A DNA stretch of 30,965 nt from a virus. Every line of letters begins with the position of its first letter. Position 1 is the stretch's first letter. Both the position numbers and the translations under genes were made by a program. The stretch is taken from positions 1 to 30,965 of IMG/VR virus record IMGVR_UViG_3300024520_000334; one strand, written 5' to 3'. The notes under the pieces are model-generated. The model was given only the letters and a program-made list of their open reading frames with translations. It was not told where the DNA came from and did no database searches. Of this stretch, positions 27,371 to 30,965 are shown piece by piece.

Positions 27371-27761
27371 TTACATCAAAGCAAGGGCAATCTTTACTAA
27401 CTCCTGGTATGTCTCTATGTCCTACAACCTCAGATCCTGGAAACGTCACAACCAACACATTGACCAGTGTTCTCAATTTCCTTTTCTGCATTATAGTATA
27501 ATTATCGTTTGGTTTCATGTCCTTGTCCAATCCACCGATTAAGCAAACTCCAATTGAGTTTTTATTGTGACCTCTGGCATGTGCGCCTTGCACGTCAATG
27601 CTGCGGCCTTTCTGTAATTCGCCCCCCCGTTTTATGATGTAATGATAGCCAACATCGTTAAACCCACGCTCTTTGTGCCATTCTCTTATTTCCTCCGTTC
27701 CTATATCCATTTGCGGCGGAGTCGCTGAGCAGTGTATTATTATTTGATCTATTTTCCGCAT
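27357..27761 (-). CDS. T7 lysozyme-like N-acetylmuramoyl-L-alanine amidase (endolysin)
   Basis: The 134-residue enzyme cuts the amide bond between muramic acid and L-alanine in peptidoglycan. The start at 27761 (MRKIDQIIIHCSAT) is chosen over a longer frame because the ATG overlaps the stop of the preceding gene (TGATG) with GAGGAC upstream. Zinc ligands expected from T7 lysozyme are H10, H115 (VVGHRD) and C125 (KDCPCFDV); the catalytic Tyr and Lys correspond to Y39 and K123. Length matches the T7 protein after its N-terminal extension. It is the first lysis gene, with the holin-like gene downstream. Confidence 0.9.
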   Translation of the reverse strand: MRKIDQIIIHCSATPPQMDIGTEEIREWHKERGFNDVGYHYIIKRGGELQKGRSIDVQGAHARGHNKNSIGVCLIGGLDKDMKPNDNYTIMQKRKLRTLVNVLVVTFPGSEVVGHRDIPGVSKDCPCFDVIEWY

Positions 27762-27922
27762 CAATTGTCCTCTTTGATGCAAGTATTGCACACAAATATG
27801 TCATCGAGCTTATAATAATTATGGGGCTTAGCGCTGAATTGCCGTCCACAGAATTCACATTCTTGTTGGTGTTCTAAATCCTCATCGTCGAAATTTAAAT
27901 CTGTTCTGTCTTCAATGCTCAT
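27761..27922 (-). CDS. Small zinc-ribbon protein
   Basis: A 53-residue frame between ninG and the amidase gene. It starts MSIEDRTDLNFDDEDLEHQ, with GAGGTGA before the ATG. Two CxxC pairs (C22-C25 in ECEFCGRQF and C45-C48 in FVCNTCIKED) form a likely zinc ribbon. It overlaps the ninG stop by 11 nt and the amidase start by 1 nt. Its place before the terminator-controlled late genes makes a regulatory role conceivable; this is only inference. Confidence 0.65.
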   Translation of the reverse strand: MSIEDRTDLNFDDEDLEHQQECEFCGRQFSAKPHNYYKLDDIFVCNTCIKEDN

Positions 27923-28499
27923 GATTCACCTCTTTTAACTGTGCTAGTTTATGTTTATATTTAAGCTCAATTTCTTTTAAATCCTGGCAAGTGTATTTCT
28001 TTGGTTCGTGTGGTCCTTCCAGATAGTTTAGTCTATCAATTCCTATTCTGACCAATAATTCGATCCTGTAGTCTGCAATGTTCCCTGATTTGTGGTTATT
28101 ACATGCAGAGCATTGTTTATGACAATTGTCCTCATTAAATCGTAATTCTGGATGTGCTCCGATTGTCCTGTAATGTCCGGCGTGATATTGACCCTTGTGA
28201 TGTCTTCCACATGATACGCACGAGTGCTCGCTATCCCTTTCTCTGATATATGCGTTAAATACAGTTTGTGCTTTCTTTGCCCTGTATGATTTGTCATTAT
28301 CGTAAAATTCTCGCTTCTGCTTTGCATGAGTAGCCTTTTTAGCGGCCTGTGCTTTCCTGTGCGCCTTTTCTTGTTGTTTAGCTTGAATTGCCCTCGCTTC
28401 TTTGTACGCGTGCTCTAGTGTGCAATATGCGCCCTTTGGCGTGACTATGTAATCATGCCCGAATTCCCCACAGTGCTTGCACTTGCGTTTATTAGCGAT
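27912..28499 (-). CDS. ninG: NinG/Rap-like recombination protein with an apparent ATC start
   Basis: The frame from 28499 to 27912 codes for 195 residues that clearly match lambda NinG (Rap), a structure-specific nuclease in phage recombination. The N-terminus holds a zinc-finger-like KCKHCGE and GAYCTLEHAY, then a long Lys/Ala helix. The C-terminal core has QTVFNAYIRERD, CVSCG, YHAGHYRTIGAHPELRFNE, and HKQCSACNNHKSGN. There is no ATG, GTG or TTG ahead of the finger: an in-frame TAG lies just upstream, and the first plausible start is ATC (28499), 8 nt after AAGGA. Translated with Met there it starts (M)ANKRKCKHC, as in relatives. A -1 shift at AAAA from an ATG at about 28525 is the alternative. 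Confidence 0.85.
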   Translation of the reverse strand: MANKRKCKHCGEFGHDYIVTPKGAYCTLEHAYKEARAIQAKQQEKAHRKAQAAKKATHAKQKREFYDNDKSYRAKKAQTVFNAYIRERDSEHSCVSCGRHHKGQYHAGHYRTIGAHPELRFNEDNCHKQCSACNNHKSGNIADYRIELLVRIGIDRLNYLEGPHEPKKYTCQDLKEIELKYKHKLAQLKEVNHEH

Positions 28500-28579
28500 A
28501 CGCTTAGTCCTTTTCTATACATATAGATTTTCTTATTTCAGAAACTATGGCACTTTTCTAAATAGCGCTAACGACATTT

Positions 28580-28909
28580 TTACTGCTTGGTTTCGACATC
28601 AAAACAAATTTTCATAAATCGGCTAGCGGCGTCGTTACAAACTGCGTGTATTTCATCCATGCAATTGTCATCAACTATGTCGGCTTGATGGATTGCGTCA
28701 GAGCACATCATTGCAACATTACAGTGCCATGCGTGGGCGTAGCTTCCAGGCTCGACACCTTCGTCATGCATGGCCTTTTGGATCACCTTAAAGGCTTTTG
28801 ATACTTCTGATTCTGATATTTCTTTTGGTGCAATGCCAAGCGTTGCATTAAGCTGATCAACAACGGATTGCTCGCGCTCTAACATTTGCCTGTACTCTAA
28901 ATCTTCCAT
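28580..28909 (-). CDS. Hypothetical nin-region protein
   Basis: The start is ATG 28909 (MEDLEYRQMLEREQ); a TTG 12 nt upstream is really part of the TTGGAGAAG ribosome site. The 109-residue protein is helical and acidic: VVDQLNATLGI, SKAFKVIQKAMHDEG, then a His/Cys-containing middle (YAHAWHCNVAMMCSDAIHQ) and DAASRFMKICFDVETKQ. It may belong to the phage accessory proteins of nin regions but no family is recognised. An 80-bp gap with the ATGTCG motif separates it from ninG. Confidence 0.6.
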   Translation of the reverse strand: MEDLEYRQMLEREQSVVDQLNATLGIAPKEISESEVSKAFKVIQKAMHDEGVEPGSYAHAWHCNVAMMCSDAIHQADIVDDNCMDEIHAVCNDAASRFMKICFDVETKQ

Positions 28910-30380: not shown

Positions 30381-30824
30381 TTAAAAAAAGCTCACTAACT
30401 GGTTATAGGTGTTCTCGTCTGTTGTTCTAAAAATGTGTTTCATCGCTGCGTTAATTAGCGCGTTATAAAATGACTCAAAATCTTCTTGCTCCATTCCCGA
30501 ATAGCTAATTGATCTCGCTTCTACTCTGACCTCGCCGTTGATGTTGTATAGCTCTGTGTAGTAACCCGCTAGGACTGTTAACTGGTTCCTGAACCTGTTG
30601 AATTGAGCGTGTATGTCTAAGTTGCGTAAATCCTGGTCACCAGCCCAATGATCAAAACAGAAGTTGAGAAAAGCAAAAACCTTTTTATGAAACTGATAGT
30701 TTCGAGTGTGCTTAATCTCAACTGTGTAGAGTTCGCCGGTCTTGAAGCGGATAGTTTTATCTTGCTCGATATCAGTAACCGGCCTAAATATTCCACCAGC
30801 TTCTTTTATCATTTCGATTTTCAT
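30381..30824 (-). CDS. DUF1367 family protein
   Basis: The start is ATG 30824 (MKIEMIKEAGG). A longer frame from a GTG at 30962 would only add a Gly/Val/Glu repeat read from the hexamer array and is rejected. The 147-residue product has the family pattern: an early IRFKTGELYTVEIKHTRNYQFHKKVFAFLNFCFDHW segment (about 26-61), then LDIHAQFNRFRNQLTVLAGY and ARSISYSGMEQEDFESFYNALINAAM (in part). DUF1367 genes typically stand beside ninG-type genes in lambdoid and P22-like phages; their role is not known. Confidence 0.8.
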   Translation of the reverse strand: MKIEMIKEAGGIFRPVTDIEQDKTIRFKTGELYTVEIKHTRNYQFHKKVFAFLNFCFDHWAGDQDLRNLDIHAQFNRFRNQLTVLAGYYTELYNINGEVRVEARSISYSGMEQEDFESFYNALINAAMKHIFRTTDENTYNQLVSFF

Positions 30825-30830
30825 ATCAAC

Positions 30831-30956
<126 letters not shown>

Positions 30957-30965
30957 CCGCACCCC

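Follow-up and report, generated by a model that had tools for sequence, protein, structure and literature searches.

An intact phage ninG gene with ATC at the start-codon position of its relatives

The window, the whole stretch of DNA analysed here, is a single virus record of 30,965 bases assembled as a metagenome consensus. On its minus strand lies a ninG/rap coding frame of 195 codons plus TGA (27912..28499), which has an ATC codon (28497..28499) where its relatives have their start codon. Our leading interpretation, with a probability slightly below one half (roughly 0.48), is that this is an ordinary phage ninG with a weak start and that it begins at a genuine AUC. A genuine AUC and a one-base change of an ATG appear about equally likely, a choice that sequence alone cannot decide.

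The frame opens after a TAG (28517-28515) and closes with a TGA (27914-27912). It begins AAA AGG ACT AAG CGT ATC GCT AAT AAA CGC AAG TGC, and the ATC is the only AUN codon ahead of the zinc finger. The only ATG, GTG or TTG codons in the frame were TTG 28055, in the C-terminal part, and GTG 27929; both lie far within the protein, and no other usable start was present. The frame matched the Pfam NinG profile (PF05766) over its full length (profile positions 5-191 of 193; 1.1e-55; 188.9 bits against a curated cut-off of 25.4 bits) and PHROG 171 (NinG/Rap) at 2.2e-66, and it is therefore no chance open reading frame. Of the 29 columns in which 93% or more of 94 full-length NinG relatives agree, 28 had the identical residue, the sole exception being V for I, and every conserved cysteine and histidine was kept. 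These results confirmed the claim of a preliminary description that an intact NinG frame with all its conserved Cys and His residues lacks a canonical start. That description had also placed the TGA correctly at 27912; it had extended the feature to 28525, and the gene is properly given as 27912-28499. Selection on the frame, which it also asserted, is borne out for the past. Such selection is no sign that the AUC itself is old or in use, since a recent or artefactual ATG-to-ATC change would leave the same picture.

The surroundings of the gene were those of an ordinary nin-like recombination and lysis region, as indicated by a NinB/Orf gene at 30381-30827 and an amidase gene just downstream of ninG. 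Its sequence marks the gene as an ordinary phage ninG, predicted to encode a Rap-type DNA-junction endonuclease of such a region. A 53-residue cysteine-rich open reading frame with an ATG start (27761..27922, minus strand) lies downstream and overlaps the end of ninG. Upstream on the same strand, another open reading frame (28580..28909) ends 80 nt before the ATC, and coupling of ninG translation to it was rejected because of this distance. The 80-nt spacer (28500-28579) contains a 10-codon open reading frame (ATG 28577) in the ninG frame. In a related record that carries a relative of the upstream open reading frame (L160), a stop codon lies 3 nt ahead of the ninG start.

Alignment to relatives placed their start codons at the ATC. 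The N-termini that begin there were MANSKRKC (L002, L011), MTNSKRKC (L033), MANSKRRC (L056), VANSKRSC (L014, from GTG), MAKKYKC (L012) and MANKKRRC (L091). At the DNA level these begin ATG-GCN-AAY-AGY-AAA-CGN (L002, L011 and L056), ATG-ACT-AAC (L033), GTG-GCT-AAC (L014), ATG-GCT-AAA (L012) and ATG-GCG-AAT (L091). Most have one residue more before the first cysteine than the window protein, and L012 has the same number. An AAGGA resembling a Shine-Dalgarno sequence (28508..28512, minus strand) ends 8 nt before the ATC, as had been described. Because the closest N-termini align at the ATC and AAGGA stands at this distance, the codon is the start position by homology, and the earlier proposal of AUC as the start position is thus well supported.

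The comparison of homologues at this codon gave a divided answer, in that the position matched but ATC occurred in none of them. An ATG, GTG or TTG start was found in 98/98 non-redundant NinG relatives with an intact N-terminus, no near relative of the window being among them. Two further relatives (L042 and L261) had seemed to lack a start, but their NinG match begins only at profile position 58 or 89; they were not counted because that frame does not include the N-terminal domain. The missing canonical start is, from these sequences, unusual for the NinG family, and this counts against a genuine AUC. Surveys for further NinGs yielded 2 more from 369 genomes and 19 from 296 genomes. As wider controls from related contigs, 69/69 amidases and 49/50 terminases had canonical starts.

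The best anti-Shine-Dalgarno duplex at the ATC had an energy of -5.3 kcal/mol, which was mid-ranking among the gene starts of the window. In this ranking every other scored gene start was taken as ATG, which also weighs against an AUC, and the start at 27763, which had been placed a base or two off, was not used. An extended Shine-Dalgarno sequence that might make up for a weak codon was looked for at the ATC and was not found, the value being average for this phage; there is hence nothing like the compensation described for the AUU and AUA starts of S. aureus (PMC13009471). The average strength argues against a genuine AUC and is typical of a gene that starts with ATG.

Two alternatives place the start at an upstream ATG in another frame. 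The 25-codon open reading frame MYRKGLSVSLINASASTVGNSGMIT (28445..28522, minus strand) begins MYRK at an ATG that had been put at about 28525 and lies at 28522-28520, 23 nt upstream. It had been proposed as the donor for a programmed -1 frameshift, in which ribosomes would slip back one base on the AAAA in the overlap to enter the ninG frame. The run of four A residues is there, but the sequence on which slipping would occur, T AGA AAA, does not fit the X XXY YYZ pattern of a slippery heptamer, the RNA fold was not unusual (z -0.32) and the Shine-Dalgarno energy of this ATG (-1.5 kcal/mol) ranked with the weakest in the window. An N-terminus of the form MYRKRTKR was seen in no relative, and the nearest ones have their start at the ATC position. 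The slip was rejected on these grounds, and we regard it as very improbable. The second alternative, an undetected one-base indel by which the true protein would start at ATG 28522 and read on into the ninG frame, is only marginally less remote. The two frames would be joined if the short A run were one base longer or shorter, and the NinGs of Gilliamella carry basic N-terminal stretches that differ in sequence. Against this, the run is only four bases long, the Shine-Dalgarno sequence of that ATG is weak and the most similar N-termini, of the MANSKRKC kind, have their start at the ATC.

A contig similar enough to show this codon was sought using the NinG protein, the terminase, the upstream gene, the amidase, a 150-residue gene upstream and an N-terminal DNA pattern as queries, and none was found; records very near the window may lie outside the searched set. 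The degenerate DNA pattern over the ninG N-terminus gave no match and the 150-residue gene no relative. The best terminase relative was 86% identical, and 27 terminase-related records contained 6 NinGs, which were only 28-52% identical to that of the window. The ATC was accordingly read from one metagenome consensus contig with no second copy found, a further point against a genuine AUC.

The competing explanation, that an ATG was changed at its third base either by a consensus or assembly error or by a recent start mutation lowering or abolishing NinG, with nothing new at work, is a strong one that we place somewhat short of even odds. It predicts all the positive features equally, since the intact frame, the Shine-Dalgarno sequence and the homologous position are expected under either reading and so do not separate them. 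It also agrees with the canonical starts of all 98 relatives and with the origin of the sequence in a single metagenome contig, which about 2 kb further on ends in a degenerate GGGGTC-type repeat (30828-30965). This repeat runs into the frame of the NinB gene; it is unusual and possibly an assembly artefact. Among 61,358 ancestral AUG starts surveyed in one study, a single switch to AUU was recorded and, of the switches given, none to AUC, AUG-to-AUU switches being extremely rare in cellular genes (PMC5622118); to the extent of the switches given, this favours a changed base over a stable AUC. On the other side, only 3/9 single-base changes of ATG give AUH codons, which are still able to initiate weakly. 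Moreover, no frameshift or nonsense codon was seen in the other window genes looked at, so that gross sequence error is low.

If the AUC is genuine, the AAGGA eight nucleotides upstream would place the ribosome at the codon, and the initiator fMet-tRNA would pair with it inefficiently, since starts other than NUG are rejected by IF3. The protein would begin Met-Ala-Asn-Lys-Arg-Lys-Cys and its level would be well below that obtained from AUG. A genuine base at this site and initiation on the AUC are our inference, as are the low expression and the IF3 mechanism, which draw on established knowledge and the papers cited here. For a genuine AUC speak the alignment with the ATG or GTG of relatives, the position of the ATC as the sole AUN before the zinc finger, the well-spaced Shine-Dalgarno sequence, the intact gene with its conserved residues, and precedents for AUN starts, to which a terminase gene seemingly also without ATG, GTG or TTG may be added. 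The infC gene starts with AUU in E. coli and ATC in Streptomyces (PMC5472188), and in S. aureus infC and ccpN start with AUA and cvfC1 with AUU, reduced initiation having been measured for cvfC1 and ccpN (PMC13009471). Lambda can do without ninG (PMC10695390), so that weak initiation would be tolerated; the same dispensability is in keeping with a changed ATG.

Compared with the NinG/Rap family, the window gene shares the full-length match, the conserved Cys, His and other columns and the nearby NinB/Orf gene, but it differs in its ATC and in an N-terminus one residue shorter than that of the MANSKRKC relatives. Like the infC-type genes, it has an AUN codon at the start position behind a Shine-Dalgarno sequence, and low initiation would be expected. 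In infC the codon serves autoregulation by IF3, whereas ninG has no known link to IF3. The AUN codons of ccpN and cvfC1 are reported to be conserved among relatives; the ATC was present in one contig only, and its Shine-Dalgarno sequence is not extended.

Other candidate non-canonical starts were seen in terminase genes. In a distant relative of the window by terminase (L151:9989-10060), a TAG precedes the open large-subunit frame, whose N-terminal part contains no ATG, GTG or TTG; the likeliest start, judged from the sequence, is an ATT that overlaps the TGA ending the open reading frame before it (AAAGATTGATATT). A second IMG/VR contig (L153) agrees with it, is identical to it over 11,840 bases and may not be independent. 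In L136 the terminase gene has ACA where the similar locus of L134 has ATG, and its start may instead be a TTG nine bases upstream.

It is conceivable, though unlikely, that an AUC start has been maintained in this phage lineage to keep NinG/Rap scarce and its translation dependent on IF3 and the state of the host, and that AUN initiation may recur in this phage group, as the ATT candidate of the L151 terminase gene would suggest. If the codon reflects a base change, the gene would be an example of a consensus sequence mimicking recoding. If the AUC start is genuine, it would add a phage gene to the few known to start with AUC, and gene callers that accept only ATG, GTG and TTG would miss such genes in viral metagenomes or cut them short.
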